This document shows, in pieces, positions 1,109 through 30,612 of a DNA stretch of 32,920 nucleotides (the first letter of the stretch is position 1; each line of letters opens with the position of its first letter). The notes under the pieces are model-generated. The model did not search any database. It saw only the letters and a list, made by a program, of their open reading frames with translations, and had not been told where the DNA came from. Origin of the DNA: Catenulispora pinistramenti (GTDB taxonomy: Bacteria > Actinomycetota > Actinomycetes > Streptomycetales > Catenulisporaceae); NCBI RefSeq assembly GCF_018274385.1, contig NZ_JAAFYZ010000108.1:1-32920 (forward strand). The letters are read 5' to 3'. The translations under genes were made by a program, and so were the position numbers.

Positions 1109-1138
1109 CCGCCGCCCAGGTCAGCGCCGCCCAGGTCA
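1109..1138 (-). repeat. 15-bp tandem duplication starting at the CYTH-gene stop codon
   Basis: Read on the minus strand, the stop TGA at 1138-1136 begins a 15-bp unit (TGACCTGGGCGGCGC) that is followed directly by TGACCTGGGCGGCGG, 14 of 15 identical. The stop is therefore duplicated in the same frame. It belongs to a group of stop-linked arrays seen at several gene ends in this window. Confidence 0.85.
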
Positions 1139-1921
1139 CCGTCGCGTGAAGTAGTCCAGCGTGCTGTCGGCTTTGGTCGGGCACGGGCCGGATTGCGTGA
1201 TCGCGTGCCGGTCCAGGAACGCCTTGGCCTGTGCGGCGGTCTGGAGCAGGTCCGCCGAGCCGCACCGGGTCGACACTTCCATCAGCCGCGAGCGGTCCGG
1301 GTAGATCCATTCCTGGAGCTCCAGCCCGCGGCCGGGCCCGTCCTGGCCGGGCCGGGTGCGGCGCACCTCGACCGGGCCCAGGGCCTGGAGGTCGTCGACG
1401 GTGAGCACGCCGTGCAGCCGGCTGTCGATCAGCGCCAGCTGCTGGTCGGAGAACAGCGTCCGCAGCGGGTTCCGGCCGTGGACGGCGCGCTCGACGGCAT
1501 GCCGGCGCAGTCGGCGCTTGAGGCTGCCGGAGCAGATGAAGCTGTCGGGGGTCACGTCCACCTCGACGGTGAAGTCGTCGCGCCGGCGCAGCGCGGCCGG
1601 CACGGCGTCGGGGTCGATCGGCCGCAGTTTGACCACCGAGTCCGGCCGCTGGCCGCCGCGCACGCGGGCCAGCACGCCCTGCCGGCGCAGCGTCAGATCG
1701 CCGGTGTCGAGGTAGTACACGGTCCGGACCCGCTTGGCGCCGACCTCCAGCAGCGTGCGCACCGCCGCATGGGACTCCTCGGCCACGGCGAATTTCAGTT
1801 CCACCTGCCCGACCTCCTGGACCAGCGCGAACATCCGGTCCAGATCGTCGTTGGCCATCCGCCATGCCCGCGGGGCGGCTTTGCGTCCCGTCTTCTTCGA
1901 AGCCTTCAGCGTCGCTCCCAC
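1136..1921 (-). CDS. CYTH domain protein (triphosphate tunnel metalloenzyme family)
   Basis: The 261-residue product has the CYTH pattern: a strand with V-E-L-K-F at 40-44, R-V-R in the GVLARVRGG segment, then V-V-K-L-R-P and F-T-V-E-V-D-V strands rich in alternating charged residues. Family members bind triphosphate (thiamine triphosphate, inorganic triphosphate) with metal inside a beta tunnel. The signature E-x-E-x-K is here Q39-V-E41-L-K43: the first glutamate is Gln, so activity or metal use may be altered. No CHAD domain is attached. The start is GTG at 1921 with AGGAG eight bases upstream; an ATG at 1858 (MANDDLDRM) is possible, since the first 21 residues are basic and outside the domain. 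It diverges from the MgtC gene. Substrate cannot be told from sequence. Confidence 0.8.
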   Translation of the reverse strand: MGATLKASKKTGRKAAPRAWRMANDDLDRMFALVQEVGQVELKFAVAEESHAAVRTLLEVGAKRVRTVYYLDTGDLTLRRQGVLARVRGGQRPDSVVKLRPIDPDAVPAALRRRDDFTVEVDVTPDSFICSGSLKRRLRRHAVERAVHGRNPLRTLFSDQQLALIDSRLHGVLTVDDLQALGPVEVRRTRPGQDGPGRGLELQEWIYPDRSRLMEVSTRCGSADLLQTAAQAKAFLDRHAITQSGPCPTKADSTLDYFTRR

Positions 1922-2048
1922 CTCCCCGTCTCCTGATCGCCGTCCGAGGCCGGATGACGCACAAAGGCTCCATTATGCGCGATCTCCGTCCAACATTCGA
2001 GTCCTGACGCTCACTGACGCCTCCGGCGAAGCAGGGCATGATGGCGGA

Positions 2049-2831
2049 ATGAGTACATCGATCTTGTGGGAGGAGCCGACGGGCCAAGGCTGGACCCAGG
2101 TCGGCGAACTGGCTGTGGCGCTGGTCCTGTCCTCGGCGATCGGACTGGAGCGTGAGATCCGGCAGAAGGCCGCGGGCCTGCGCACTTACACGATCGTGGG
2201 GCTCGGGGCGGCCTTGTTCGTGCTGGTGAGCAAATACGGCTTCACGGATGTGCTCAGCCCGGGCCGGGTGGTCGTCGACCCCTCGCGGGTCGCCGCGCAG
2301 ATCGTCTCCGGCCTGGGCTTCATCGGCGGCGGTGTGATCTTCATGCGCCGGGACACGGTCCGCGGCCTCACCACGGCCGCCGCACTCTGGCTGACGGCCG
2401 GCGTCGGCGCGGCGGCCGGTGCGGGACTGGGCCTGCTCGCGCTCCTGACCACGGTCGGCTACTTCGTGGTGGCGTACGCCCTGCGCCCGCTGACCCACTG
2501 GATGCCCGCGCTACGCACACCTCCGGTTACCTACCGCATCGAATACCTCGACGGCAGAGGCTTGCTCCGCACAGTTCTCGACGTCTGCACCGGCGCGGGC
2601 TTCTTCGTCGCGTCGTTCAGCGGCACCGGCCGCCACGACCACTCCGACAGCCGCGACCTCGAAGCGCCCCAAGGAGCCCAAGCGCCCGAAGCCGGCCGGC
2701 TGGACCGGACGGTCGAGGTCGTGCTGACGCTGCACGGACGCGGGAACGTCAACGACCTGACCGAACAGCTGGTCGCCACCTCCGGGATCGTCGCCGTCGC
2801 CTACAACCGCGCCGACGACGAGTTCTCCTGA
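2049..2831 (+). CDS. MgtC/SapB family membrane protein
   Basis: The 260-residue protein carries the MgtC signature: L-V-L-S-S-A-I-G-L-E-R-E, then K-A-A-G-L-R-T-Y-T-I-V-G-L-G-A, G-L-G-F-I-G-G-G-V-I and R-G-L-T-T-A-A-A-L-W. About five hydrophobic helices occupy residues 15-155. A soluble C-terminal domain of about 90 residues with ACT-like pattern follows, interrupted by a His/Asp-rich loop. MgtC proteins are inner-membrane proteins linked to growth at low magnesium and to ATP-synthase control in pathogens; in soil actinomycetes the role is open. The ATG at 2049 is preferred because the domain starts soon after; the upstream in-frame extension lies over the divergent gene's leader. The 3' end overlaps the rhamnosidase gene by 31 bp tail to tail. 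Confidence 0.88.
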   Translation: MSTSILWEEPTGQGWTQVGELAVALVLSSAIGLEREIRQKAAGLRTYTIVGLGAALFVLVSKYGFTDVLSPGRVVVDPSRVAAQIVSGLGFIGGGVIFMRRDTVRGLTTAAALWLTAGVGAAAGAGLGLLALLTTVGYFVVAYALRPLTHWMPALRTPPVTYRIEYLDGRGLLRTVLDVCTGAGFFVASFSGTGRHDHSDSRDLEAPQGAQAPEAGRLDRTVEVVLTLHGRGNVNDLTEQLVATSGIVAVAYNRADDEFS

Positions 2832-5555: not shown

Positions 5556-6044
5556 ATGCCGGAGACCGTTACGTACGTCGAGATGGCCAGCCGCGATCAG
5601 TTCACGCCGAGCCCGCCGGTGTCGGGATTGACGCTGGACCGGCTCGAACCCGGCTCGCCGCTGATCGCCGAAGTGATGGCCGGGGTCGGTGCTCCGTACG
5701 GCTGGAAGAGCGCGCGGCGCGGCCCGGAGGAGTGGGTGACCTGGCTCGCGGAGAACTCCGGGCGGGACTTCTGGCTCCTGGCCCTGCACGGCGAGCCGGC
5801 CGGCATCGTGGTCTTCGACCCGCAGCCGGGCGGTGAGGTCGAGATCAAGACCTTCGGGCTGCTGCCGGCGTTCGTGGGCAAGGGTTTCGGCGGCTATGCG
5901 TTGACGCTCGGGGTGGACCGGGCGTGGCAGTTGCTGCCGGAGGTGACCAGGGTCTGGTTGCACACGCAGACGTCCGACCATCCCCATGCCCTGTCGAACT
6001 ATCACGGCCGGGGGTTCCGCACCTTCAAGACCGAACCGGCGTAA
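5556..6044 (+). CDS. GNAT family N-acetyltransferase
   Basis: The 162-residue protein has a GNAT fold: L-L-A-L-H-G-E-P-A-G-I-V-V-F in strand 2-3, E-I-K-T-F-G-L-L-P-A-F-V in strand 4, then G-K-G-F-G-G-Y-A-L, the acetyl-CoA pyrophosphate loop, and a C-terminal N-Y-H-G-R-G-F-R that matches the usual 'Y.k.GF' end. The first 35 residues are not typical and might contribute to substrate choice. The acceptor is unknown. It stands alone between the divergently transcribed rhamnosidase (97 bp gap) and the convergent superoxide dismutase. Its stop codon opens a 12-bp tandem array. No strong Shine-Dalgarno sequence precedes the ATG at 5556. Confidence 0.85.
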   Translation: MPETVTYVEMASRDQFTPSPPVSGLTLDRLEPGSPLIAEVMAGVGAPYGWKSARRGPEEWVTWLAENSGRDFWLLALHGEPAGIVVFDPQPGGEVEIKTFGLLPAFVGKGFGGYALTLGVDRAWQLLPEVTRVWLHTQTSDHPHALSNYHGRGFRTFKTEPA

Positions 6045-6093
6045 ATAGGCGTAACAAACGGCGTGGTCAACGGCGTAATAGACGGCGTGCCCG
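6042..6093 (+). repeat. Stop-anchored 12-bp tandem array after the GNAT gene
   Basis: The stop TAA at 6042 begins a first 10-bp unit (TAAATAGGCG). Three 12-bp units follow at 6052, 6064 and 6076 (TAACAAACGGCG, TGGTCAACGGCG, TAATAGACGGCG) and a partial one starts at 6088. Stop triplets recur in units 1, 2 and 4. The last 12 coding bases (6030-6041) also end in CGGCG and match unit 2 at 7 of 12 positions, as if they were a diverged copy. Confidence 0.75.
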
Positions 6094-7524: not shown

Positions 7525-7534
7525 CTCTGCTCGA

Positions 7535-7589
7535 TGCTCAGATCAGGCTCAGGTCATGCTCGGATCAGGCTCACATCAAGCCCAGATCA
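7535..7589 (-). repeat. Five 11-bp tandem units each starting with TGA, anchored at the FHA-kinase stop
   Basis: On the minus strand the kinase stop TGA (7589-7587) is the first triplet of an 11-bp unit. Four more units follow without gap, starting at 7578, 7567, 7556 and 7545, each beginning TGA with consensus TGATCTGAGCC. Because 11 is not a multiple of three, TGA appears in all three frames within three units. The last 11 coding bases before the stop (CGCCCTGGGCC) match unit 1 at 7 of 11 positions. The array fills nearly the whole gap to the convergent CGNR gene, and no terminator hairpin is seen there. Confidence 0.9.
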
Positions 7590-8975
7590 GGCCCAGGGCG
7601 ACAACGCCGCCCGGAACTCGGCCGCGGTCTGGAACCCGATGGCCGGCGTCTCCCGCAGCGCCTCGTCGATGACCTCGGCGAGCCCCGGCGGCAGGCTCGG
7701 CTCATGCTCCCGGATCGGCGTCGGCGTCATCTGCAGCACCGCCTGCCACGGGTCGCGGGCCCGGGAGAAGTCCCGAGGGAACTCGCCGGTCAGGCAGCGG
7801 TAGAGCGTCGCGGCCAGGGCCCAGACGTCGACGGCCGGGGAGGAGTTGCGGAAGTTGATGACCTGCTGGCGCGGCAGGTACCAGGGTTTGCCGGCGGTCG
7901 CGCCGGTGCGGGTCAGGCCACTGAGACCGGCCTGGTCGAAGGCCTTGGCCAGGCCGAAGTCGCAGACCTTGGCGGTCAGCGCCGCCCCCTGCCCGGTCAG
8001 CAGGATGTTGGACGGGCTCAGGTCGCGGTGCACGATACCGGCGTCGTGCGCGTGCTCCAGCCCTTGCAGCACCTGCACCGCGAGCCGGACCGCCTCGTTC
8101 GCCGGCAGCTTGCCGCCCCGGCGCTCCACCAACCGGTCCAGGCTGCCGCCTTCGCAGTATTCGAGGGTGAAGTAGAAAGTGCCGCCGGCGTATCCGGCGT
8201 CATGCAGGGCGGCGATGTTCGGGTGTCGCAGGGTGCTGGTGAGCTTCGCCTCGCGCAGGAAGCGGTCGCGGGCGACGGTGTTGGCCGCCGCCTTGGGCAG
8301 CATCACCTTCAGCCCCACCACCTGGCCGGTCGCCTCGTGCCGGGCCAGATACACCGCACCCATGCCGCCCCGGCCCAGTTCGCGGACCAGGGTGTAGCCG
8401 GCGATCGGGGCGAGCTCGGGGGTGGGCTGGGCACTGCCGGCCAGGCGTAGCAGGAGCCTGAGTACGGCGCCGGGATCGTTCTGGCAGACCGCGCAGACGT
8501 ACTCGCCGGTCCGCGCGCCGATCTCGCCGGCGACGTCGCGTCCGCAGTTGGAGCACTGGGCCGGGACGTCGGCGAACGGGGTCAGGGTCGCCGGCACGTG
8601 GATACCGACCCGGAACACCGTCTCGCCGAGCCGGATCTCGTCCCCGTCCAGCAGATCGCGCTCCGGATAGGACACGGCCGCGGCTTCGTCAGGGCTCTGG
8701 TGCTTCTCCCGCTGGCCGATCTTCTCGCCGTTGACGTAGGTGCCGTTGAGGCTGCCGAAGTCGCGGATCCGGGCCTCGGGCGGGTTGATGTCCAGCAGGC
8801 AGTGGTGCCGGGAGACGGTCCGGTGGTGCTCGTCGTCGGGCAGCCGGGGCGCGCAGTCGTCGGCGCGGCCGAGTACGCACGTGCTCCGCTCGGCGAACAC
8901 GTGCCGGCTCTGGCCCCCGAGGCCCTTCACCATCGTCAGCGAGATCGTCGGCACGTCGGTCGGGGTCGGCGTCAT
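7587..8975 (-). CDS. FHA domain - zinc ribbon - Ser/Thr protein kinase
   Basis: The 462-residue protein starts with a forkhead-associated domain (30-125: L-G-R-A-D-D, S-R-H-H, G-S-L-N-G-T-Y-V-N-G), which binds phosphothreonine peptides. A four-cysteine ribbon (C141, C144, C161, C164) follows, then a Hanks-type kinase (193-460): G-R-G-G-M-G loop at 201-206, K223, E242, H-R-D at 316-318 and D-F-G at 339-341. The catalytic loop reads H-R-D-L-S-P-S-N: Ser320 replaces the usual Lys, a change also known in other bacterial kinases. No transmembrane helix is present, so the kinase is cytoplasmic. The ATG at 8975 overlaps the Clp-like gene's TGA by four bases (ATGA), implying translational coupling. 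The FHA domain may read phosphorylation made by this kinase or by the nearby WD40 kinase. Confidence 0.92.
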   Translation of the reverse strand: MTPTPTDVPTISLTMVKGLGGQSRHVFAERSTCVLGRADDCAPRLPDDEHHRTVSRHHCLLDINPPEARIRDFGSLNGTYVNGEKIGQREKHQSPDEAAAVSYPERDLLDGDEIRLGETVFRVGIHVPATLTPFADVPAQCSNCGRDVAGEIGARTGEYVCAVCQNDPGAVLRLLLRLAGSAQPTPELAPIAGYTLVRELGRGGMGAVYLARHEATGQVVGLKVMLPKAAANTVARDRFLREAKLTSTLRHPNIAALHDAGYAGGTFYFTLEYCEGGSLDRLVERRGGKLPANEAVRLAVQVLQGLEHAHDAGIVHRDLSPSNILLTGQGAALTAKVCDFGLAKAFDQAGLSGLTRTGATAGKPWYLPRQQVINFRNSSPAVDVWALAATLYRCLTGEFPRDFSRARDPWQAVLQMTPTPIREHEPSLPPGLAEVIDEALRETPAIGFQTAAEFRAALSPWA

Positions 8976-18352: not shown

Positions 18353-18422
18353 GGCCAGGTGCCAGGTGCCAGGTGCCAGGTGCCAGGTGCCAGGTGCCAG
18401 GTGCCAGATGCTAGGAGCTAGG
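18353..18422 (-). repeat. Ten 7-bp tandem units between marR and the flavoprotein gene
   Basis: On the plus strand the unit is TGCCAGG. Six perfect copies occupy 18360-18401. One variant lies on the left (GGCCAGG, 18353) and three on the right (TGCCAGA 18402, TGCTAGG 18409, AGCTAGG 18416). Read in the direction of marR, the array starts 12 bp after its TGA, and its first two units contain TAG before turning to TGG. The perfect core with diverged edges is typical of slippage expansion. It lies in the possible leader of the downstream flavoprotein gene. Confidence 0.92.
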
Positions 18423-18881: not shown

Positions 18882-18911
18882 AGTCTAGCGTCAGTTCATT
18901 GGACATCCCAA
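18882..18911 (-). promoter_or_regulatory. Candidate marR promoter
   Basis: On the minus strand TTGGGA (18911-18906) and TAGACT (18887-18882) are 18 bases apart. The start would fall at about 18875, next to the ATG, so the transcript is probably leaderless. The first palindrome covers the -35 and half of the spacer. Confidence 0.45.
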
Positions 18912-18915
18912 TGAA
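18895..18915. promoter_or_regulatory. MarR operator 1
   Basis: TTCATTGG, five bases (ACATC), CCAATGAA: perfect 8-bp arms. It overlaps the -35 elements of both divergent promoters. Its near copy lies 38 bp away centre to centre. Confidence 0.8.
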
Positions 18916-18928
18916 GTGTGGCTACAGT
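18899..18928 (+). promoter_or_regulatory. Candidate oxidoreductase promoter
   Basis: TTGGAC (18899-18904) and TACAGT (18923-18928) are 18 bases apart. Operator 1 covers the -35 and operator 2 covers the expected transcript start near 18935, an arrangement suited to tight repression. Confidence 0.5.
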
Positions 18929-18933
18929 GAAAG

Positions 18934-18952
18934 TCATTGGAAATCCCAATGA
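18934..18952. promoter_or_regulatory. MarR operator 2
   Basis: TCATTGG, five bases (AAATC), CCAATGA: perfect 7-bp arms, same core and same spacer length as operator 1. It lies between the candidate -10 and the ribosome site of the oxidoreductase gene. Confidence 0.8.
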
Positions 18953-19920: not shown

Positions 19921-19950
19921 CGACTGGCCCTGACGACCGACCCCTGACGC
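19918..19950 (+). repeat. Stop-anchored 13/14-bp tandem array after the oxidoreductase gene
   Basis: The stop TGA begins TGACGACTGGCCC (19918-19930), followed by TGACGACCGACCCC (19931-19944) and a partial TGACGCG. Stops repeat at 19931 in another frame and at 19945 in the original frame. The preceding coding bases (CTGGTTCCC) resemble the unit end CTGGCCC. Confidence 0.75.
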
Positions 19951-20021
19951 GGCGATGCCAGCGATGCCTCGCCGCCGCCGCGCGCCGGACCACCGGCTAT
20001 CGTGGGTCCGGCCCCAACCAT

Positions 20022-20039
20022 ACTGAGCAGTAGCTCAGT
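20022..20039. promoter_or_regulatory. TetR-type palindrome upstream of an NTF2-like gene
   Basis: ACTGAGC, four bases (AGTA), GCTCAGT is a perfect 7-bp-arm palindrome 20 bp before the start codon at 20060. Its TGAGC-N4-GCTCA core resembles many TetR operators. No TetR gene is in the window, so the regulator, if real, is encoded elsewhere. It could also form a small hairpin in the leader. Confidence 0.5.
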
Positions 20040-20059
20040 CAGCCCCGAGCAGGAGTCTG

Positions 20060-20452
20060 ATGCACCCGTTCCGGCAAGCGGTGGAAGCGCGCGACACGGC
20101 CGCGATCGAGGCGATGCTCGCCGACGACGTCGTGTTCACCAGCCCCGTCGCGTTCAAGCCCTACCCCGGCAAGGCGATCACCGCGGCGATCCTGCGCGGC
20201 GTCCTGCGGGTCTTCGAGGACTTCCGCTACGTCCGCGAGATCGCCGGCGCGGACGGCCGCGACCACGCCCTGGTCTTCACCGCGACCGTGCACGGCAAGC
20301 AGGTCACCGGCTGCGACTTCCTGCACTTCGACGACGACGGCCGGATCGACGACTTCATGGTCATGGTCCGCCCGCTGTCCGGTGCCCAGGCGCTCGCCGA
20401 GGCCATGGGTGCCGAGTTCGAGCAGATCAGCCAGGAGGCGATGAACGGCTGA
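20060..20452 (+). CDS. SnoaL-like/NTF2-fold protein
   Basis: The 130-residue protein has the NTF2-like pattern: F-R-Q-A-V-E-A-R-D-T-A-A-I-E-A-M-L-A-D-D-V-V-F at 4-26, a conserved P-Y-P-G-K loop, D-H-A-L-V-F-T-A-T-V strand and F-L-H-F-D-D-D-G-R-I-D-D-F-M-V-M-V-R-P end. Members include polyketide cyclases, isomerases and many small-molecule-binding proteins of unknown role. AGGAG lies eight bases before the ATG at 20060. It faces a second NTF2-fold gene of a different subgroup; the two share only fold-level similarity, so this is not a simple duplication. A TetR-type palindrome upstream suggests ligand-controlled expression. Confidence 0.85.
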   Translation: MHPFRQAVEARDTAAIEAMLADDVVFTSPVAFKPYPGKAITAAILRGVLRVFEDFRYVREIAGADGRDHALVFTATVHGKQVTGCDFLHFDDDGRIDDFMVMVRPLSGAQALAEAMGAEFEQISQEAMNG

Positions 20453-20456
20453 GGCC

Positions 20457-20500
20457 GCGAGCAGGGTTCGCGACCGGCCGCACGGTCGCGGCCTGCTCGC
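20457..20500. terminator. Long hairpin between convergent NTF2-like genes, likely bidirectional terminator
   Basis: Two stacked stems: GCGAGCAGG (20457-20465) with CCTGCTCGC (20492-20500), and CGCGACCG (20469-20476) with CGGTCGCG (20483-20490), loop of six. Only small bulges (three bases and one base) separate the stems. No T-run follows on either strand, as is common for actinomycete terminators. Confidence 0.75.
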
Positions 20501-20514
20501 CACTGGCCGCACCG

Positions 20515-20964
20515 TCACGGTGCCGGCTGCAGGATCCCCGGATCGCCCTCGGCCCACGTGCCGATCAACACCCGGCCCGCGATGAGCCACCGGCCCTCGA
20601 CCCGGCGCAGCTCGTCCTCGTAGCGGCCGGCGGCCAGGAACCGCTTGCCGTCCTTGAGGTGCTGCGCCAGGTAGTAACAGGTGTGCCGGGCGGTGTCGCC
20701 GTCGAGGGTGACCACGTGGTTGGTCATCACGTGCTGGGTGCCGTCGAGGTGGTCGATGGTCGGCCGGATCCGGCCGGCGATCTGATCCGGCCCGACGTGG
20801 CGCTCGCCGCCGGCCAGGTACTCCCACACGGCGTCCGGAGTGAACAAGGACTCGAACATGGGCCAGTCCCGGGTGTCGAGCGCCGTCGCGTAGGCGACGG
20901 CGGTGTCGACGATCGCCAGGCGGTCGGCCAGGGCCGGGGCCGGGGCATCGGCGGGTACGGTCAT
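20515..20964 (-). CDS. SnoaL_4-type NTF2-fold protein
   Basis: The 149-residue protein matches the SnoaL-like domain found alone or as dioxygenase small-subunit relatives: A-D-R-L-A-I-V-D-T-A-V-A-Y-A-T-A-L-D-T-R-D-W at 13-34, F-E-S-L-F-T-P-D-A-V-W-E-Y, then H-V-M-T-N-H-V-V-T-L-D-G-D-T-A and a G-R-Y-E-D-E-L-R-R-V-E-G-R-W-L-I strand. Asp30 and the T-R-D-W segment are typical of the subgroup. The substrate is unknown. GAGGAG lies seven bases before the ATG at 20964. It converges on the other NTF2-fold gene over a strong hairpin and diverges from the HAD gene at 21058. Confidence 0.87.
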   Translation of the reverse strand: MTVPADAPAPALADRLAIVDTAVAYATALDTRDWPMFESLFTPDAVWEYLAGGERHVGPDQIAGRIRPTIDHLDGTQHVMTNHVVTLDGDTARHTCYYLAQHLKDGKRFLAAGRYEDELRRVEGRWLIAGRVLIGTWAEGDPGILQPAP

Positions 20965-21023
20965 GTCGGCTCCTCGGCGGTAGGCGAGAGGACCACGATA
21001 TCCAGCGTGGCTCTGCTCGGCAT

Positions 21024-21051
21024 TTCGACGACCTTATGACCTCCGTATGAT
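21024..21051 (+). promoter_or_regulatory. Promoter of a leaderless HAD gene
   Basis: TTCGAC (21024-21029) and TATGAT (21046-21051) are 16 bases apart. The start codon at 21058 is where transcription should begin, so the mRNA is probably leaderless; no ribosome site is seen before the ATG. Confidence 0.55.
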
Positions 21052-21057
21052 CACCGC

Positions 21058-21723
21058 ATGAGTTACGCCCTCTTCGATCTCGACGACACTCTCGTGGACG
21101 CCAAGGCGGCCCTGCGCGCGTGGGCCGTGGATTTCGCCGCCGAGTACGTCTCAGGGATCGAGGACGCGGCTTCCGACGTGTTCGCCCTGGTGGACGGCGC
21201 CGCCAACTGGCCGGGGTTCGTCGCGGACGCCCGTGCGCGCTACGGGATGACGGCGCCGGACGAGGAGTTGATGGCACACGTCGCCGCCGTGTATCCGGGC
21301 AAGTTCGTCCTGGAACAGCGGGTGCGACGCGGACTGGCCGAGCTGCGCGCGGCCGGGTGGCGGCTCGGCGTCGTCACCAACGGATCCACCCTCGTGCAGC
21401 AGGCCAAGGTGGACAGCGTCGGGCTGCGGCCCCACCTGGACGCGGTCGTCGACTCCGAGGCGGCCGGGCATCGCAAGCCGGATCGGCGGATCTTCGAGAT
21501 CGCGGCGGACGAACTCGGTGTGGAGCTGGGGCCGGGCGGCTGGATGGTCGGCGATCGGCTGGACAAGGACGTCGCCGGGGGAGCGGCGGTCGGCCTGCGG
21601 ACCATCTGGATCTCCCAAGGCGACCCGCTGCCGGCGGGAAGCACGCCGCCGACCCACATCGCCGCGTCGATCACCGAAGCGTTCGCGATCGTCCAGGCAT
21701 CCGGGCCGCCGCGCCAGTCTTGA
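21058..21723 (+). CDS. HAD-superfamily hydrolase
   Basis: The 221-residue protein shows motif I F-D-L-D-D-T-L-V-D (D7, D9), motif II L-G-V-V-T-N-G-S, motif III G-H-R-K-P-D-R-R-I-F and motif IV G-D-R-L-D-K-D-V-A-G-G. The helical cap between motifs I and II marks a type I phosphatase, and the D-D-T form of motif I is typical of the REG-2/YjjG-like group that acts on nucleotides or small phosphates. The exact substrate is open. It is not closely similar to the HAD protein at 15699. Candidate promoter elements put transcription start at the ATG. The last 15 coding bases are one unit of an 18-bp tandem repeat that also contains the stop. Confidence 0.88.
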   Translation: MSYALFDLDDTLVDAKAALRAWAVDFAAEYVSGIEDAASDVFALVDGAANWPGFVADARARYGMTAPDEELMAHVAAVYPGKFVLEQRVRRGLAELRAAGWRLGVVTNGSTLVQQAKVDSVGLRPHLDAVVDSEAAGHRKPDRRIFEIAADELGVELGPGGWMVGDRLDKDVAGGAAVGLRTIWISQGDPLPAGSTPPTHIAASITEAFAIVQASGPPRQS

Positions 21724-21756
21724 CCGCCGCGCCAGCCGTGAGCGTCGCGCTGGCTC
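21706..21756 (+). repeat. 18-bp tandem repeat spanning the HAD stop codon
   Basis: The coding end CCGCCGCGCCAGTCT plus stop TGA is repeated as CCGCCGCGCCAGCCG plus TGA (21724-21741; 16 of 18 identical), and a more diverged copy follows up to the convergent pcp stop. Stops recur in frame at 21739. The arrays of this class thus reach into coding sequence. Confidence 0.8.
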
Positions 21757-22372
21757 AGTGCGTCTCGCCGGCGGGCATGGCGATGTCTTCCCGCGTTCGC
21801 ACCGCAGTGGTCAGCAAGGCGCGCAGCCCGTCAGCGACCGTCACGGCCGGAAGATCCGGCAACGCGGGAACGTGGACGAACCCGCCACGCGTCCCCGGCC
21901 GCTCGGTCGCGATGCAGTGCATGAGCCCGTAGAACACGTGGTTGCACACGAAAGTCCCGGCCGTATACGACAACGACGCCGGCACCCCGGCAGCACGCAC
22001 CGCCGCCACACACGCCTTCACCGGCAGCGCCGAGAAGTACGCCGTCGGCCCGTCGGCGACGACCGGGGTGCCGTGCCGCGACACCCCGGCGTTGTCGGGG
22101 ATGCGCGCCTCGTCGAGGTTGATCGCGACGCGCTCGACCGTGACGTCCAGCCGCCCGCTCGCCTGCCCTACACAGACCACCACGTCCGGATCGGTCTCGC
22201 GGATCGCGGCCGCCAGCTGCTCCAGCGCGCGGCCGAAGACGCAGTCGAGCCGCACCACGCTCAACTCCAGGCCGGCCGGCGGTTCCTGCCCGACCAGACG
22301 GACCGCCTCCCAAGAGGAGTTGAGTTCGTCGCCACCGAAGGGCTCGAAACCGGTGAGCAGGACACGGGACAC
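21755..22372 (-). CDS. pcp: Pyroglutamyl-peptidase I (peptidase family C15)
   Basis: The 205-residue cysteine peptidase removes N-terminal pyroglutamate from peptides in the cytoplasm. The opening V-L-L-T-G-F-E-P-F-G-G and the catalytic triad E80 (V-E-R-V-A-I-N), C143 (G-T-F-V-C-N-H-V-F-Y) and H167 (G-F-V-H-V-P) match known enzymes almost position for position. GTG at 22372 is chosen: it starts right at the family N-terminus and has GGAGA seven bases upstream; in-frame codons further upstream (to 22444) overlap the preceding gene. It lies 55 bp behind the long helical-repeat gene on the same strand and may be co-transcribed with it. Confidence 0.95.
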   Translation of the reverse strand: MSRVLLTGFEPFGGDELNSSWEAVRLVGQEPPAGLELSVVRLDCVFGRALEQLAAAIRETDPDVVVCVGQASGRLDVTVERVAINLDEARIPDNAGVSRHGTPVVADGPTAYFSALPVKACVAAVRAAGVPASLSYTAGTFVCNHVFYGLMHCIATERPGTRGGFVHVPALPDLPAVTVADGLRALLTTAVRTREDIAMPAGETH

Positions 22373-22402: not shown

Positions 22403-22437
22403 GCTTGCTGTTCCTAGATCGCTGTCCCTAGACCCTA
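22403..22437 (-). repeat. Stop-anchored 14-bp tandem repeat after the helical-repeat gene
   Basis: On the minus strand the stop TAG (22430-22428) begins TAGGGACAGCGATC, followed by TAGGAACAGCAAGC (11 of 14 identical). The last coding bases, TAGGGTC at 22437-22431, look like a shortened third unit placed before the stop. Confidence 0.75.
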
Positions 22438-25400
22438 GCCGCACCTATGTCCAGGTCCAGCGCCTCCTCCACCACGATCGGATCCGAGTGTCGCCGCAAC
22501 GCCCCGACCACCGACCGATACCCCTGCGGCCAGTCCAACCGGGCACCGGCGATGCCGGCCAGCCGCGTCGCGATCAGCCCGGCCGCCGACTCCTCACGCG
22601 CGGCCAGCGCGTCGACCGCCGCGAGCACCGCGGCCGGGTCCCACGGCTCGCCGATCGCCACCATCGCGACCAGATGCTCGCCGGCCCGCACCGCAGCATC
22701 GGGTCGTCCGGCCAGTTCGGCGGCGAGCTCCAACAGTTCCCCGGCTACTTGCTCGACCTCGGCGTCCAGATCCACGGCGCTCGCGGCCAACGTCGCCGCC
22801 AGCCGTGCGTAGCCGGGGTGCTCGGCCAACGTCTGCGCGGTGAGGCTGCGGATCGCGCGGCGCTCGACCGGATTCGGCCCGCGCACCTCGGCCGCGGCCT
22901 GTGCGATCTGCACCAGTCGACGGCGGGCTGGCCGGTCGCGGCCGTCGACGCGGTTGTGCTGCGCATTGTCTTGGTGGGTGTGCTGCGCGGCGTCGTGCTG
23001 GTGGGTGTGCTGCGCGGCGTCGTGTTGGTGGTTGTGCCGCGCGGCGTCGTGTCGGCGGTGCGGTGCGCCGTCTTGGCCGTCCCGGGCGTCGCCGGCGAGC
23101 AGAGCCTCCAGCACCGCCCGGTACCGGGACACCGGCATCCCTTCGGCCAGCAGCGCGAACAGCGCCGACGGCGGGGTGGCCCGGTCGCCGAGCCGGTCGA
23201 GGTCGGTCATCGCTGTGCAGACCACGGTCGCCACGGCGTCGCTCCACCGGTGCCAGCGCGGCGCGACCGCGAGCGCCTGGCTGGAGACCTTCGGGTCCCG
23301 GGCGTCGCAGGCTGCTGCGATGAGGTCGCCGTAGACGTGGCGGTGTCGGTCAGGGAGCTGGTGTGGACGCGTCCGCAGCAGTTGGAGAGCGATTGCCGGG
23401 TCCTCGCCGACCGCTTCGCGCAGCAGCGCGGGCACGCGCTCGTCGTCCAGCCGGTCGGTCAGGCGCGAGATCACCGCTGCTTTGACGTCGCGGTGCTGCC
23501 CCGGCACGCGCCACACTGCCTGGAGAAGGTCGACCAGGCCGGGGATCTCCAGGCCCGCGGCGATCCGCAGGGCTTCCTTGCGGCTGGTGACCTTCGCGGT
23601 CGGCGACAGGGCGACCTCGGTCAGGACCGGGGCGGCGGCCGAGGGCCGGGCGAAGCGGGCGGCGTGGGCCGCGGCGTAGACGGCGACCCGGGCGCGGTCG
23701 CCGTCGGCGTGGGCGAGCAGGATCGGCAGCGTGGCCGCCGGGTCGTCGCTGGAGGCGAGCGATTGCAGCGCTGCCTCGGCCAGCGGGATCTCGGAGGAGT
23801 CGAGGTAGCGCCGCACTTCACGCTGGCCCTCGCCGGAGATGGTGCCCAGCACGCTGATCGCGCCGGTCCGCACGTGGGTCTTGGCTCCCCGGTCCGCCGC
23901 GACTTTCGCGAGCTGCCGGGCGTAGGCGGCCAGCTGGCGCGGGAGCCAGTGGTGCGACGGCCGGAACTGCCCCACCCAGGTGGCGTCGCTCTGGGCGATG
24001 AACCTGCCCTTGATCGCCCGCTCGCCGGACACGTACGGGTCCAGCAGGTCGGTGCGGCGCATTGACGGCACGCCGGCGACCCGCCACAGCGCGGCCACGC
24101 TCGGATCCCAGGCCGCGAGGCGTCCGACCCGGACATCGCGGCACGCCGGGTCGGCCAGCCACAGGTCGATCGCCGAGCGCGCGGTGGAGCTGGTGCCATG
24201 CCAGATCGCGTGCGCGATCGCGTCCTGCAACTCCGGGATGCGCCAGGCCCGGCGGCCGAGGGACTGGGCCAGCGCCAGCACCAGGCGGTGATCGGCGCGC
24301 TCGATGCCGCGCTCGATCCACGGCCGCATGGTCCGGTAGACGGCGAGTTCCTGGCCGCGCCGCAGGTTCTGGTCGAGCTGGCCGAGGTGGAAGGCGCTGG
24401 TCGCGCCGGCCAGGTGCTCGAAGGCGAGCAGGGACCAGGCGAGGAGGTCACCGGTGCCGGTACCAGAGCTGGAGCTGCCCGCCTCTTCGGCCGCGCCACT
24501 GCCGTCCGTGGCCTGATGAGCCAGGATCCGGCACGCCAGCTGCTGCAACGCCGCGCGGGTGCCCCAGCCGCAGTCGCGGGCCTCGAGCGCGTAGGTGACC
24601 AGGCTCAGCAGGGTGTCGGACATCGCCGGAACGTCCTGGAACAGCCGGGCCGGAACCGCCGCGAGCGCCGCCAACGCGGCCCGGCGTACCGGATCCTGCT
24701 CGTTGCGCAGCCGCCCGAGCTCCTCGGTGACCAGCGCGGTGACGGCCGGCGCATGGTCCTCGGCGGCGGCGCAGGCCACCAGCAGCGGATACGCGTCCGC
24801 GCGCTCCTGCGCGTCGGCGCGGCGCACCGCGGCCCGCAGCTCGGCCCGCGCCTCGTCCCACGGCAGCCGGGCGATGTAGACCAGCCGCTGCCCGGGGCGG
24901 TCGGTGAACGAGGGCAGCACGAGCATCCGGCGGGCTTCGGCGTGCCGATGCCGGCGGGGCAGCGCGTCCAGAACGGCCGGGGCGAGGATCGCCGTGCCCT
25001 TCTCCCGGTCGGCGGTGACGGCGTCGTAGAACTCGGCCCGCGCGCTCGGCGGCAGGCCACCCAACAGATCAGCGAACGCCGCCGCGTCGTGCTGGAGGGT
25101 GCGGCCGATCACCACGATCTCCGGCCGTCCCGACCTGGCCAGCCGCCTGCGCGTGGTGCGCGACAGATACCACCAGCGGTTCGCCAGGCCGCCGTCGGCC
25201 ACGGTGAGCAGGCGCAGCGTGCGGTCTTCGTCGGCGCGCGCCAGCACTCGGATCCGACGTAGGAAGGCGTCCGGAATCCCTTGCGGGAGCGGGAATTCCT
25301 CCAGGAGGTCCAGCACCTGGCCGGGGCGCTCCTCGGCGGCGGCCACCAGACCCGCGCCGAAGATCGCCCACCCGCCGGCGCGCGACCCGGCCGGCGTCGC

Positions 25401-25688
25401 CGCCAGCTCGCGCCGCGCGTACTCCAGCATCAACGCGGGATGCCGGACGCCCAGCCGGCTCCAGCCGGTCAGCTCGTGGGCCAGCTCGGGCAGCAACCGC
25501 TCGGCGACCTCGGCGGTACACAGCGGCAGCAGCCGCGCGGTGTCCGCCTCCCCGAGCGAGTCCCGATAGGATTCGGCCAGCCGATCGGCGAGGTCCGACC
25601 GCCGCGCCGCCCCGACCATCCGCACCAGGGTCCGCCGCCACTCCAACGACGCGTCGGCGACGGTCGCCAGCACCGCGGCATCAGTCAC
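22428..25688 (-). CDS. Large helical-repeat (HEAT-like) protein of unknown function
   Basis: The 1086-residue product is Ala/Leu/Arg-rich and built of repeating helix pairs of about 35-40 residues throughout (for example V-R-R-A-A-L-A-A-L-A-A-V-P-A, I-P-L-A-E-A-A-L-Q-S-L-A-S-S and V-R-T-G-A-I-S-V-L-G-T-I), which fits a HEAT-like solenoid. It has no signal peptide, membrane helix or catalytic motif that I can see. A Ser/Gly-rich loop lies near 410-420. Residues about 880-906 form three 9-residue His-rich repeats (unit H-D-A-A-Q-H-T-H-Q), encoded by 27-bp tandem DNA. Solenoids usually serve as scaffolds. The start is GTG at 25688, without a convincing ribosome site; nearby ATGs are out of frame. 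Probably in one transcription unit with the VOC genes and pcp. I cannot assign a family name. Confidence 0.82.
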   Translation of the reverse strand: MTDAAVLATVADASLEWRRTLVRMVGAARRSDLADRLAESYRDSLGEADTARLLPLCTAEVAERLLPELAHELTGWSRLGVRHPALMLEYARRELAATPAGSRAGGWAIFGAGLVAAAEERPGQVLDLLEEFPLPQGIPDAFLRRIRVLARADEDRTLRLLTVADGGLANRWWYLSRTTRRRLARSGRPEIVVIGRTLQHDAAAFADLLGGLPPSARAEFYDAVTADREKGTAILAPAVLDALPRRHRHAEARRMLVLPSFTDRPGQRLVYIARLPWDEARAELRAAVRRADAQERADAYPLLVACAAAEDHAPAVTALVTEELGRLRNEQDPVRRAALAALAAVPARLFQDVPAMSDTLLSLVTYALEARDCGWGTRAALQQLACRILAHQATDGSGAAEEAGSSSSGTGTGDLLAWSLLAFEHLAGATSAFHLGQLDQNLRRGQELAVYRTMRPWIERGIERADHRLVLALAQSLGRRAWRIPELQDAIAHAIWHGTSSTARSAIDLWLADPACRDVRVGRLAAWDPSVAALWRVAGVPSMRRTDLLDPYVSGERAIKGRFIAQSDATWVGQFRPSHHWLPRQLAAYARQLAKVAADRGAKTHVRTGAISVLGTISGEGQREVRRYLDSSEIPLAEAALQSLASSDDPAATLPILLAHADGDRARVAVYAAAHAARFARPSAAAPVLTEVALSPTAKVTSRKEALRIAAGLEIPGLVDLLQAVWRVPGQHRDVKAAVISRLTDRLDDERVPALLREAVGEDPAIALQLLRTRPHQLPDRHRHVYGDLIAAACDARDPKVSSQALAVAPRWHRWSDAVATVVCTAMTDLDRLGDRATPPSALFALLAEGMPVSRYRAVLEALLAGDARDGQDGAPHRRHDAARHNHQHDAAQHTHQHDAAQHTHQDNAQHNRVDGRDRPARRRLVQIAQAAAEVRGPNPVERRAIRSLTAQTLAEHPGYARLAATLAASAVDLDAEVEQVAGELLELAAELAGRPDAAVRAGEHLVAMVAIGEPWDPAAVLAAVDALAAREESAAGLIATRLAGIAGARLDWPQGYRSVVGALRRHSDPIVVEEALDLDIGAARV
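22971..23051 (-). repeat. Three 27-bp tandem units coding a His-rich peptide repeat
   Basis: Units lie at 22971-22997, 22998-23024 and 23025-23051; the first two differ at one base and the third at three or four. The period is a multiple of three, so each adds nine residues with four His, inside the helical-repeat protein. A shorter, diverged unit lies on the left side. Confidence 0.9.
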
Positions 25689-26938: not shown

Positions 26939-26959
26939 CCGGTACGGTTCAATGGGTCC

Positions 26960-29900
26960 GTGGACACCGCAGCGGAGGTTTCGGCCCGGGAGGCTGAGGT
27001 GTTGTCCCTGCTCGGGGAGCACCTGAGCAATGCGGAGATCTCGACGCGGCTGTTCATCTCGGTACGTACGGTCGAGAGCCACGTCTCCTCACTCCTGCGC
27101 AAGCTCCAGGCCACGGACCGGCGGGCCTTGGCGCAGCGCGCGGCCGGGATCGCGCGCGCCGCCGCCGAAGCCGAATCGGCCGCTGCCACGGCTGCCACAG
27201 CCACAGCCACAGCCACAGCCACGTCTACGGCTACCGCCACGGCCACCGCGGCGCCCACAACCTCGGCCCCAGCCCCAGCCCCAGCGCCAGTACCGACACC
27301 GGCCCTGCCGCAGCCGCTGACCCCCTTCGTGGGCCGCACCCGGGAGTGCGCCGAGCTGGCCGACCTGATCCGCGCCCACCGGCAGGTGGTGGCGGTCGGC
27401 CCCGGCGGCGTGGGCAAGACCCGGCTGGCGCTCGCCGTCGCCGAGCGCGTCGCCGAGGAGTTCACCGACGGCGTCTGGTTCGTAGACCTGGTCCAGGTGA
27501 CCGAGCCCGGCCTGGTCGGGGCCACAGTCGCCGGGGCGCTCGGCGTCGGCGAACAGCCCGGCCGCGCTCTGCCGGAGTCGGTGGCCGCGACGCTCGACGA
27601 CCGGCGCGCGCTGCTGGTCCTGGACAACTGCGAGCAGGTCCGGGACGGCGTGGCGCCGTTCCTGGAACGGCTTCTCGGCGCGTGCCCTCGGCTGACCGTG
27701 CTGGCGACCAGCCGCGCCCGGCTGATGGTCCCGTTCGAGCGGGTCTACCAGGTCCCGCCGTTCTCGCTGGCCGGCGGCGGCGAGTCGGACGCGGTCGCGC
27801 TGTTCGCCAGCCGCGCGGCGGCGGTCGGCTGGGTGCCGGATCCCGCGCAGCGCGAGCGCGTCGCCGAGGTGTGCGGGCGGCTCGACGGGATGGCGTTGGC
27901 GATCGAGTTGGCGGCGGCCCGCCTGCCCACGCTCGGGCTGGACGGCATCACCGCCGCGCTGGCCGATCCGCTGCGGATGCTGGCCGGCGGCTCACGGGCC
28001 GACGACCGGCACCGCTCGGTGCGCGCGGCGTTGGACTGGAGCCACGCGCTGCTGGAACCGTCCGATCAGATGCTGCTGCGCCGGGTGTCGCTGTTCGTGG
28101 CGCCGTTCGCTGTGACGTCCGCGGCCGAGGTGACCGGCGCCGAGATCGGCGTCGTCGCCGACGGCCTGGCGCGGCTGGCCGAGCAGAGCCTGCTGACGGT
28201 GGGTGTGACGGTGACGGTGTCCGGCGGGGGCACCACCTACCGCGCGCCGGAGACGATCCGCCGCTACGGGATGGAACGGCTCACCGCCGCCGACGAGCTG
28301 GCCGAGGTACGCCTTCGGCACCTCCGCTGGTGCCTGGCGCGCGCCGCCGAGCTCGCCAAGGGCGGCGGGCCGGATTGGCGGGCCCGGTTCGATGCCGTGG
28401 CCGACGATCTGCGTGCTGCTTTGGCGTGGGCGGCCGAGGACGCTGAACAGCGCGCGGACGCCTACCGGCTCGCGCAGGATTTGGCGATCACGACATTCAC
28501 CCGGCAGCTGATCGGCGAGTCCCAGCGCCGCTATGAGCAGGCGGCCGGTCTCGCTGACGACCCGGCGCAGGCCGCCGCGATGCTGCGTCAGGCTGCGGCT
28601 GTGGCCGGGTGTCGGATGCGCGGCGATGACCTGCACCGGTTGCGGCTCGAAGCCGCGGACGCCGCGCGGCGCTCCGGCGACGACGGCGGAGCCGCACGCG
28701 ATCTCGCGACCGCCGCCAGCGACGCGTACCGGTTCGCCAGCAAGTTCGTCAGGGCTCTGCCGCCGGAGGAAGCGGCGTCGCTCATCGCCGAGGCGCAGCA
28801 GTTGGCCGGCGGCGATCCGGCTGCCGCAGCGGCAGTGGCGCTGGCTGAGGCCGGGCGGATGCTGACCGAGTCCTTCGCTGTCGAGCAACGGCAGCAGCAG
28901 TCAGGTCCGGATTCGGATTCGCATCCGGATTCCAGTCCGTATTCCAGTTCGTATCCCAGTTCGAGTCAGAGTTCGGATTCGAGTTCGCGTTCTGATGCGA
29001 GTGCGATGATCGCGGCGACGATCGCGTGTGCTGAGAAGGCGGTCGACCTTGCCCGGCGTACCGGTGATCCGCTCGCCGAGTCGGCCGCGCTCGACACCCT
29101 CGCCGGTGCGCAGAGCTGGGCCGGCGAAGCGTTCGCGGCCACGGCGACCGCGCTGCGACGCCTCGCGCTGCTGGAGTCCGTGCCGCACACCGACACGCCC
29201 GCCGCAACGCTTGAACTGATCGAAGCACTCGGCGAGGCCACCGAGGCCACGGTCGGAACCGGAGACCTCGCCGCGGCCAAACGCTGGGCCCGGCAGCTCG
29301 CCGACCATCCGCTGCTGGCCGAGGTCGGGCACCGGGCCACGGCCGGTCTGCTGGCCGCCGACGCGCTGGCGGGTGACGTCGCGGAGGTCCTGGCCGTCAG
29401 CGACCGGTTCCTTGAGGCGTGGCAGAGGTCTGGCAGCCCCGCGAAGTCGATCCTCGGCCCGGCGGCGGCCGGGGTGGCGATGGTCCACGGCTTGCGTGGG
29501 GACCAGGAAGCACGGCATGCGTGGGATGCGGTTCTGCGGCAGCTTGGCAGCTCGCCGTGGGAGACGTATGGCTACGGTGCGGTCTTCGACGCCTTGGTCC
29601 TCCTACATCGCGGGCAGGCGCGGGAGGCGCTGGAGCGCGTGACACCGGGGCCTGATGAGGTCTGGCGGTGGGTCACCTGGACGTGGCTGCACTGGTACGT
29701 GGCGCTGCGCGCCGAAGCAGCCGTGCTGGCTGGGAGCCCCGATGCTCGCGATCGGCTGGTCGAGGCGCGGGCAGCGGTGGCGGGCAATCCGATTGCCGAT
29801 GCGTTGGTGGAGCGTGCCGAGGCACTGCTCGACGGCGACCGGGAACGGGTGCTCGCCACCGCGCGTGTGTTCGATGCCGCCGGCTGCCGGTACCAGGCGG

Positions 29901-30004
29901 CGCGGACCTTGGTGCTGGCGGGCGGGCCGGACGCGGTTCGGGGTGAGGCGTCGATCGCAGAGCTCGGACTCGCTCCGATGGCTACGGCCGCCACTCCCGC
30001 CTGA
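26960..30004 (+). CDS. LuxR-type HTH - STAND ATPase - helical repeat regulator
   Basis: The 1014-residue protein has an N-terminal GerE-type helix-turn-helix (5-60: V-S-A-R-E-A-E-V-L, S-N-A-E-I, R-T-V-E-S-H-V-S-S-L-L-R-K-L), an Ala-Thr then Ala-Pro linker (about 75-118), a STAND/NB-ARC ATPase with Walker A G-P-G-G-V-G-K-T near 148-155 and Walker B A-L-L-V-L-D-N-C-E-Q, the G-R-L-D-G-M-A-L-A-I-E-L-A-A segment, and a TPR-like helical half from about 440. A Ser/Asp-rich stretch (about 648-682) interrupts that half. Such proteins switch between ADP and ATP states on ligand sensing and then control transcription. GTG at 26960 begins five codons before the HTH; an earlier GTG at 26912 lacks a ribosome site. 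The 3' end overlaps a convergent GNAT gene by 23 bp. Confidence 0.88.
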   Translation: MDTAAEVSAREAEVLSLLGEHLSNAEISTRLFISVRTVESHVSSLLRKLQATDRRALAQRAAGIARAAAEAESAAATAATATATATATSTATATATAAPTTSAPAPAPAPVPTPALPQPLTPFVGRTRECAELADLIRAHRQVVAVGPGGVGKTRLALAVAERVAEEFTDGVWFVDLVQVTEPGLVGATVAGALGVGEQPGRALPESVAATLDDRRALLVLDNCEQVRDGVAPFLERLLGACPRLTVLATSRARLMVPFERVYQVPPFSLAGGGESDAVALFASRAAAVGWVPDPAQRERVAEVCGRLDGMALAIELAAARLPTLGLDGITAALADPLRMLAGGSRADDRHRSVRAALDWSHALLEPSDQMLLRRVSLFVAPFAVTSAAEVTGAEIGVVADGLARLAEQSLLTVGVTVTVSGGGTTYRAPETIRRYGMERLTAADELAEVRLRHLRWCLARAAELAKGGGPDWRARFDAVADDLRAALAWAAEDAEQRADAYRLAQDLAITTFTRQLIGESQRRYEQAAGLADDPAQAAAMLRQAAAVAGCRMRGDDLHRLRLEAADAARRSGDDGGAARDLATAASDAYRFASKFVRALPPEEAASLIAEAQQLAGGDPAAAAAVALAEAGRMLTESFAVEQRQQQSGPDSDSHPDSSPYSSSYPSSSQSSDSSSRSDASAMIAATIACAEKAVDLARRTGDPLAESAALDTLAGAQSWAGEAFAATATALRRLALLESVPHTDTPAATLELIEALGEATEATVGTGDLAAAKRWARQLADHPLLAEVGHRATAGLLAADALAGDVAEVLAVSDRFLEAWQRSGSPAKSILGPAAAGVAMVHGLRGDQEARHAWDAVLRQLGSSPWETYGYGAVFDALVLLHRGQAREALERVTPGPDEVWRWVTWTWLHWYVALRAEAAVLAGSPDARDRLVEARAAVAGNPIADALVERAEALLDGDRERVLATARVFDAAGCRYQAARTLVLAGGPDAVRGEASIAELGLAPMATAATPA

Positions 30005-30530
30005 GCAGCCCGTAGACCCACGAGTCGGAGACGTCGCCGTCGACGGTGCAGTCCTCCCGCAGCGTCCCTTCCCGCAGGAAGCCCAGCTTCTCCAACACGC
30101 GGGCGGACGCCACGTTGCGCGTGTCGGTCTCAGCCTGGACGCGATTCAGGTCCAGCGTGTCGAAGGCCCACCGCAGGAGAGCGTGCGCGGCCTCGGTCGC
30201 GTAGCCGTGGCCCCATGCCGTGTCGCTGTAGCAGTAGCCCAGCGAGGCGCTGCGGTAGTCCGGATTCCACCTGGCCAGGGTGCACCAGCCGATGAACGCC
30301 CCGTCGGAGACGCGCTCCACGACCACCCGCGCCCCGGTGCCCTCCTGCGCCATCTGCCGACACGTGGCGATGAACTTCTCGGCGCGCGCGGGTTCGCTCC
30401 ACGGTGGCGAATCCCAGTAGCGCAGCACGTGGGCGTTGCTGTGCAGGGCGAAGAGGTCGTTCGCGTCCGTGTCTTCGAAGGCGCGCAGTCGAAGGCGCGA
30501 GGTCTGCAATGAGGGGGTGGGCAGCGGCAT
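29982..30530 (-). CDS. RimJ/RimL-type GNAT acetyltransferase
   Basis: The 182-residue protein follows the RimJ/RimL pattern: T-S-R-L-R-L-R-A-F-E-D-T-D-A at 10-23, F-I-G-W-C-T-L-A-R-W strand, S-L-G-Y-C-Y, then the acetyl-CoA loop A-W-G-H-G-Y-A-T-E-A, L-N-R-V-Q-A-E-T-D-T-R-N-V-A-S-A-R-V-L-E-K-L-G-F and a final G-L-L-R-R-E-W. Such enzymes acetylate N-termini of ribosomal or other proteins, or small amines; the acceptor is unknown. The ATG at 30530 has no clear ribosome site. The 3' end overlaps the LuxR-STAND gene tail to tail. Confidence 0.92.
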   Translation of the reverse strand: MPLPTPSLQTSRLRLRAFEDTDANDLFALHSNAHVLRYWDSPPWSEPARAEKFIATCRQMAQEGTGARVVVERVSDGAFIGWCTLARWNPDYRSASLGYCYSDTAWGHGYATEAAHALLRWAFDTLDLNRVQAETDTRNVASARVLEKLGFLREGTLREDCTVDGDVSDSWVYGLLRREWRP

Positions 30531-30580
30531 GGTCGATCATTCGAGCAGCTGCTGCCGGTTGGCCGCAATTGGTTTTCTCG

Positions 30581-30612
30581 GTGACCCGGTGACTCAGCAA
30601 CTCAGTAGCCCG
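30581..30612 (-). repeat. 8-bp tandem units around the membrane-protein stop codon
   Basis: On the minus strand four 8-bp units run CGGGCTAC (coding), TGAGTTGC (starts with the stop), TGAGTCAC and CGGGTCAC. Neighbouring units share 4-6 of 8 bases. The stop recurs once. Shortest and least certain of the stop-linked arrays. Confidence 0.5.

Follow-up and report, generated by a model that had tools for sequence, protein, structure and literature searches.

In the 32,920-nucleotide stretch of Catenulispora pinistramenti DNA analysed here (the window), many genes end in, or are closely followed by, a short tandem array, and we think, with a probability of roughly 0.6, that such arrays arise by frequent short tandem duplication which is filtered by selection, leaving the 3' flanks of genes full of them. 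An original prediction, made from the letters of the window, had described eight short tandem arrays at gene ends, most of them starting at or containing the stop codon of the gene. All eight exist, at or close to the places where they were described, and six of them are reported by Tandem Repeats Finder (TRF) at a score of at least 30. The arrays belong to the general kind of bacterial variable-number tandem repeats (VNTRs). About a fifth of the gene ends that are followed by a gap have such a fast-changing short array in this genome and its close relative.

The window lies on contig C11 of an 11.46-Mb draft genome of 671 contigs (G000). We sampled 1.364 Mb of this genome, with 976 genes called by our own codon-composition model and not by a standard caller (starts are approximate), and 591 gene ends had a following gap of at least 30 bp. 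Arrays were detected as ungapped tandem self-matches with a lag of 4-40 and a score of at least 12. The stop codon was inside an array at 47 of the 591 ends, and an array was present within 60 bp at 124 of them. Arrays covered about 1% of the coding DNA lying 50-200 bp ahead of a stop, 12-14% of the 60 bp that follow it and 1.5% of the 30 bp preceding starts. In the window itself, 4 of 18 ends with a gap of at least 30 bp had the stop in an array and 9 of 18 had an array within 60 bp; at a score of at least 10 these numbers were 5 and 10. Arrays are a genome-wide feature, and the window is richer in them than the genome sample overall. So the figure first proposed, 7-8 of about 21 ends, holds for arrays at gene ends and was somewhat generous for arrays on the stop codon.

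The arrays are local, VNTR-like head-to-tail copies beyond chance. The draft state of G000 with its 671 contigs and the home-made gene model could raise the suspicion of an artefact, from chance matches in GC-rich DNA, from assembly errors or from wrong gene calls, which we find hardly credible. In a count per end, 51 of 591 ends had the stop in an array and 124 had an array within 60 bp, and five dinucleotide shuffles gave on average 0.4 and 1.6. In the single-contig genome of a congener (G001), 40 of 313 ends likewise have an array within 60 bp, versus 1.0 in shuffles. In addition, the separately assembled contig C662 of the close relative (G002) carries the same units in other copy numbers at several of these ends. 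Chance and assembly artefact were rejected on the shuffle excess and on the arrays of the single-contig genome.

The unit sequences are unrelated among loci. When 41 stop-spanning arrays of G000 were compared, 3 of 820 pairs matched at E≤0.05, over 10-11 bases each. This agrees with the earlier statement that the arrays are not a dispersed element, and an element like the mycobacterial interspersed repetitive units (MIRUs) was rejected for the same reason. MIRUs share a family sequence, whereas the Catenulispora units share none. They resemble the present arrays in being tandem and intergenic, and the original prediction said that they too touch stop codons. They also differ in size, being 40-100 bp long as given in the available part of the source (PMC2734929).

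The reading frame separates the arrays inside genes from those behind genes. Perfect duplications with periods of 10-36 were counted in four genomes. Coding DNA (1785 kb) had 68 in-frame versus 7 frame-shifting duplications, and codon shuffles yielded hardly any in-frame segments in coding DNA (0-6 per Mb). The 3' flanks (65 kb) had 12 in-frame and 32 frame-shifting duplications, the 5' flanks (85 kb) 1 and 6, and other non-coding DNA (190 kb) 10 and 11. Frame matters for duplications inside genes and does not matter behind genes. Among 91 two-copy perfect non-coding arrays, homology at the unit ends, of the short kind that slippage would leave, was in excess of chance: k=0 in 26 (29%; chance 50%) and k≥4 in 22 (24%; chance 2.7%).

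Our proposal for the origin of the arrays is as follows. Short tandem duplications, with units of 4-40 bp as covered by the detector, would arise along the genome, most likely by replication slippage or by template misalignment between short direct repeats. Selection would purge the frame-shifting ones from coding DNA, and from promoter and 5' DNA most duplications of either type. Duplications in 3' flanks, or straddling a gene end, would survive as presumably neutral changes, the straddling ones because the first copy still terminates the protein at the original stop. The permitted zone would then reach about one unit into the coding sequence, so that many arrays give the impression of being anchored on the stop codon and contain copies of it.

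The position at the stop codon had been named as the feature shared by the arrays. It was compared with a uniform-placement model, in which arrays fall evenly in the gap and may extend one period into each gene. Convergent gaps showed no excess of stop contact, neither in G000 (17/55 versus 14.9±2.7) nor in four genomes together (24/85 versus 22.7±3.3) nor in G001 (3/23 versus 3.9 expected). Convergent gaps of 100-200 bp in five genomes had no gradient, with coverage of 0.135, 0.141 and 0.149 at 0-30, 30-60 and 60-100 bp from the stop. Array starts in gaps of 120-1000 bp of four genomes, counted per half period, were 15+12 in the period before the stop ([-1,0)), 13+8 and 11+9 in the next two after it ([0,1) and [1,2)), and 1+4 one period earlier ([-2,-1)), or 27, 21, 20 and 5 in sum. 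In convergent gaps, 25 of 28 intrusions into genes were shorter than one period. Such a limit would follow if duplications survive as long as they leave the first copy of the gene end and its stop intact. Because the arrays reach about one unit into genes and rarely beyond, they provide a simple readout of selection at gene ends and of the raw duplication process. A comparison of stops with shuffled flanks and random intergenic points had been suggested as a check: 3' flanks are far richer in arrays than 5' flanks and coding DNA, but within convergent gaps the stops are not enriched over the remaining positions. Measured by the refuting condition set at first, half of the claim falls. Most of the apparent stop anchoring is geometry, with an excess of about 1.5-fold left over in codirectional gaps of G000 and G002.

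The arrays turn over fast between two close species. G002 is a Catenulispora with roughly 93% identity to G000, and the comparison of copy numbers is one between species. The window is syntenic with contig C662 of G002 (38,425 bp), with matched blocks 88-95% identical. A counterpart in G002 was obtained for 103 of 787 gaps, and 88 of these passed the length filters. Among 65 orthologous convergent or codirectional gaps, an array was present in both genomes in 8, in one only in 16 and in neither in 41; among 23 divergent gaps the numbers were 5, 1 and 17. In these counts "both" may cover different units, and "one only" may hide an array below the threshold. The shared arrays of divergent gaps include a likely MarR operator pair, described below. 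Substitution identity was 0.914-0.938 within 60 bp of the stop versus 0.946-0.964 on the start side, the divergence on the stop side being inflated by uncertain alignment inside arrays. A comparison of unit number between relatives had been proposed, and at the species level the unit numbers do differ. Of the causes named at first, iterated duplication describes the process correctly in kind: G000 and G002 have unequal copy numbers, and other species have different units at the same gene end.

The frequency of arrays also differs among lineages. For the coverage and lineage counts, 78 of 80 loci were used (L075 and L144 were left out). The non-Catenulispora actinobacterial loci all surround a superoxide dismutase gene, and so represent similar neighbourhoods and not random samples of their lineages. 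The stop was in an array, and an array lay within 60 bp, at 13 and 29 of 138 ends in G002, 8 and 40 of 313 in G001, 11 and 23 of 118 in Kitasatospora, 4 and 17 of 158 in Streptomyces (including one Wenjunlia locus), 4 and 22 of 270 in Streptosporangiales, 2 and 3 of 79 in Micromonosporaceae, 0 and 1 of 58 in Pseudonocardiales, and 0 and 0 of 92 in a sample of E. coli K-12. Five groups are too small to rank: G007 (2 and 8 of 41), G009 (1 and 4 of 35), metagenome-assembled genomes (1 and 5 of 26), Janibacter (0 and 3 of 23) and Protofrankia (1 and 4 of 14). For stops inside arrays, G000 differs from G001 (p=0.0011), Streptosporangiales, Streptomyces, Pseudonocardiales and E. coli, and does not differ from Kitasatospora (p=0.58) or Micromonosporaceae (p=0.10). 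The Kitasatospora loci (L105, L115, L126, L128, L129, L131, L134, L139, L141 and L145) together have stop-spanning arrays about as often as G000, and more often than the Streptomyces loci. Mismatch repair was considered as a cause of the lineage differences and rejected, as it gives no contrast (NucS in 20 of 20 genomes, MutS_I in 0 of 12). With the stop in an array at 8-9% of ends in this pair and Kitasatospora, 2.6% in the congener and 0/92 in E. coli, the contrast raises the question of the replication or repair factor behind the rate.

Several results weigh against the filter reading, and part of them favour a rate of duplication that depends on position. In codirectional gaps of G000, stop contact was 16/48 versus 10.5±2.5 under uniform placement, with the 70 bp before the next start excluded. 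For G000 and G002 together, whose counts are not independent, it was 29/91 versus 12.9±3.2 at 0 bp exclusion, 27/81 versus 16.6±3.1 at 30 bp, 23/67 versus 14.8±2.9 at 50 bp, 21/58 versus 13.9±2.7 at 70 bp and 18/46 versus 11.1±2.5 at 90 bp. Five genomes gave from 32/123 versus 16.7±3.6 (0 bp) to 20/63 versus 14.6±2.9 (90 bp). The codirectional excess was weak across four genomes (19/72 versus 15.9±3.0 at 70 bp) and absent in G001 (3/21 versus 4.9±1.5). The test hinges on how far upstream the constraint before the next gene reaches. The stop codon as anchor is mostly unsupported, an excess of contact being seen in codirectional gaps of G000, alone and with G002, and none in convergent gaps or in G001.

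Other points on the same side concern distance, mechanism and lineage. Convergent DNA at least 100 bp from gene borders had a coverage of 0.033-0.034 versus 0.114-0.120 less than 100 bp from the stop, and this contrast persists after masking of weak open reading frames (ORFs). Convergent gaps of 400-1000 bp had low coverage throughout, near the stop too; the low coverage far from genes may reflect the long gaps themselves (missed genes, acquired DNA) and not distance. Inserted bases per position between G000 and G002 were 0.329 on the codirectional start side (0-25 bp) versus 0.238 on the stop side (0-25 bp), values that do not cleanly tell the two sides apart; gap placement in the alignments is uncertain. 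The end-homology excess was equal in 245 coding arrays (k=0 38%, k≥4 25%), and decay of longer arrays could partly mimic it. The density of in-frame duplications in coding DNA had no clear correlation with 3' arrays (Spearman 0.23 and 0.35, n=9 groups), and on this ground the genome-wide duplication rate was rejected as the cause of lineage differences. The filter reading does not account for the greater richness of this Catenulispora pair and of Kitasatospora compared with several relatives.

Duplication might instead be actively directed towards transcription-unit ends, for example by RNA polymerase pausing or termination, R-loops or encounters of replication with transcription, and in some lineages gene ends would then be true mutational hot zones of about 100 bp. 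This would suit the roughly 3.5-fold higher array coverage of convergent flanks less than 100 bp from the stop, the codirectional excess in G000 alone and at all five exclusion sizes with G002, and the very strong 3'/5' asymmetry of the arrays. However, convergent gaps of one length class have no gradient and their stop contact equals uniform placement, frame-neutral duplications occur in coding DNA too (the 68 in 1785 kb), G001 has no stop excess in codirectional or convergent gaps, and the codirectional test depends on the upstream extent of the constraint on the next gene. We regard such a bias as possible and rather unlikely. In its more far-reaching form, duplication in some actinobacterial lineages (this Catenulispora pair, Kitasatospora) would be concentrated at transcription-unit ends and would continually rewrite the 3' flanks by copying the last codons and the stop, making stop-proximal DNA an evolving hot zone beyond mere tolerance; this we offer tentatively and with a little more doubt.

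Selection might also retain the arrays, with the extra stops backing up termination, as had been suggested at first. Stop copies do recur in later units, and stop-spanning arrays have 1.78 versus 1.31 any-frame stops per 60 nt, a surplus which follows from copying a stop. The periods keep the frame in only 25 of 66 cases (p=0.25), a further stop in frame follows within 60 nt in 16 of 37 arrays versus 171 of 475 other ends (p=0.38), and the stop lies inside the array at only 47 of the 591 ends, against 124 with an array within 60 bp. With no frame-keeping bias and no excess of later in-frame stops, the back-up device was rejected; we judge it very improbable, and repeated stop codons should not be taken as a functional device.

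A signal at the RNA or DNA level (terminators, Rho sites or protein-binding arrays) had also been put forward. The location suits elements of 3' untranslated regions, and in Mycobacterium tuberculosis longer rnc-fpg1 repeats accompany higher expression of the downstream gene, according to the available part of the source (PMC2734929). We consider such a role improbable. The units have no common sequence (the 3 of 820 pairs above), and copy number, unit and presence vary freely at orthologous ends. C-G skew is 0.031 versus 0.032 in flanks with and without arrays, and the folding z is -0.36 in 85 array flanks versus -0.76 in 150 of 380 non-array flanks. Terminator, Rho and structure signals were rejected because folding is weaker than in other flanks and the skew is equal.

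Our literature search, limited in coverage, retrieved no description of short arrays associated with stops or 3' ends in actinobacteria. The tandem repeats of archaeal Borg elements are the nearest case found. In the available part of the source (PMC9879509) they have independent origin, rapid turnover between relatives and flanking partial repeats, and their units are divisible by three in ORFs, whereas most intergenic units are not. The present arrays are like them in independent origin, in rapid turnover and in units that are divisible by three in ORFs and mostly not between genes. They differ in that Borg repeats, as described there (PMC9879509), are perfect, A-biased and extrachromosomal, whereas ours lie on cellular contigs and are often imperfect and GC-rich, and in that placement relative to stops was here tested against uniform placement. 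Perfect, A-biased units of the Borg type were not what we found: many arrays are imperfect, and 3' flanks with arrays have 68% GC, the same as those without (A content itself was uncounted).

The rnc-fpg1 repeats of M. tuberculosis are intergenic tandem units of variable number that begin 40 bp past a stop codon, in the available part of that report (PMC2734929). They have compound units of 16-79 bp at one locus in strains of one species complex (PMC2734929), whereas here mostly short units are found at about a fifth of gene ends and compared between species. The TAACTGA heptamer repeats of Beggiatoaceae and others are short intergenic direct repeats with stop triplets (PMC4679880, available part). 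They are one fixed heptamer, mostly just upstream of starts in the strain described there (PMC4679880), whereas in the present case the unit differs from locus to locus and the arrays are mostly at 3' ends.

In the window, Pfam supports the labels first given to the kinase/FHA, GNAT, zinc-binding dehydrogenase, HAD and MarR genes, and no Pfam match at 1e-3 was obtained for the supposed CYTH, helical-repeat and membrane-protein genes. The names FMO-like, glutathione-transferase-like and LuxR-like are provisional labels of ours. The first array has 15-bp units in 1.9 copies (1110-1138, minus strand, TRF), and its first unit starts at the TGA of the gene at 1136-1921(-), the one called CYTH. On contig L066 of C. 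pinisilvae this locus has a single copy followed by unrelated sequence. An imperfect array of 12-bp units in 4.5 copies (6037-6088, plus strand, TRF) spans the TAA of the GNAT gene at 5556-6044(+) (Pfam Acetyltransf_1) and has fewer copies in G002. An 11/22-bp array of 5.5 copies (7534-7597, minus strand, TRF) fills a 62-bp convergent gap and contains the TGA of the FHA/kinase gene at 7587-8975(-); it adjoins an ABATE/CGNR gene ending at 7524(+), and the Pfam families of the two neighbours are FHA, Pkinase, ABATE and zf-CGNR. In G002 this array is degraded, and no array was detected at that gene end.

The 7-bp array of about 10 copies (GCCAGGT on the plus strand; 18354-18422, minus strand, TRF) lies between the stop of marR (18434) and the start of an FMO-like gene (18322). 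In G002 the marR 3' flank (L166) holds instead a few copies of a similar 7-mer in direct and in inverted orientation, which might form a hairpin. The 13/14-bp array of 2.6 copies (19915-19949, plus strand, TRF) spans the TGA that closes the zinc-binding dehydrogenase gene at 19920(+) (Pfam ADH_zinc_N) and is absent from the same gene end in G002. The 18-bp array of 2.5 copies (21706-21750, plus strand, TRF) spans the TGA of the HAD gene at 21058-21723(+) (Pfam HAD) and sits in a 31-bp convergent gap with the gene at 21755-22372(-). About 7-8 units are present there in G002, and in G008 (L181) an unrelated 17-bp stop-spanning array is found at the same HAD gene end.

Two arrays were read by eye and are weak alone. 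One has 14-bp units in 2-2.5 copies (22403-22437, minus strand) and spans the TAG of the large gene at 22428-25688(-); the other has 8-bp units in 3-3.5 copies (30579-30606, minus strand) and spans the TGA of the gene at 30602-31369(-), the one called a membrane protein. At the same gene ends of G002 the 14-mer has about 5 copies and the 8-mer about 10 (score 51), which supports both. The glutathione-transferase-like gene ending at 32500(+) has a stop codon without array in the window (32498-32500, plus strand). Its end in G002 has about 90 bp of 14-bp units repeating the last codons and the stop, and in G003 a different stop-spanning array; L177 and L187 are the loci listed with this end for the G002 and G003 arrays, respectively. 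G003 also has an unrelated stop-spanning array at the end of the FMO-like gene (L150). Many other orthologous ends in other Catenulispora have no array in the same comparison.

The large gene and the LuxR-like gene (26960-30004) contain in-gene arrays at 22955-23052, 27194-27290 and 28908-29026, with periods of 27, 6, 12 and 18 bp, all divisible by three (TRF). In the divergent gap between marR and the dehydrogenase gene, the palindrome TCATTGGAnATCCCAATGA occurs twice, 38 bp apart (18896-18952), and in G002 a tandem pair with an equal period sits at the corresponding position; the pair probably represents MarR operators. Where the FMO-like gene ends (stop 16898), G002 has about 2.1 kb of additional DNA, the matches jumping from 16884 to 16900 in the window and from 19307 to 21433 in G002. 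The segment 15633-16457, with a HAD-like ORF ending at 16397, had no match at that place in G002 (825 bp versus about 430 bp). In a 20-kb stretch of contig C1 compared with G002, 103 matches were obtained, mostly paralogous, resembling in our reading a multimodular biosynthetic cluster. The 3' ends of the LuxR-like gene and of a GNAT gene share 23 bp (29982-30004), and the 51 bp at 29960-30010 differ from G002 by one base.

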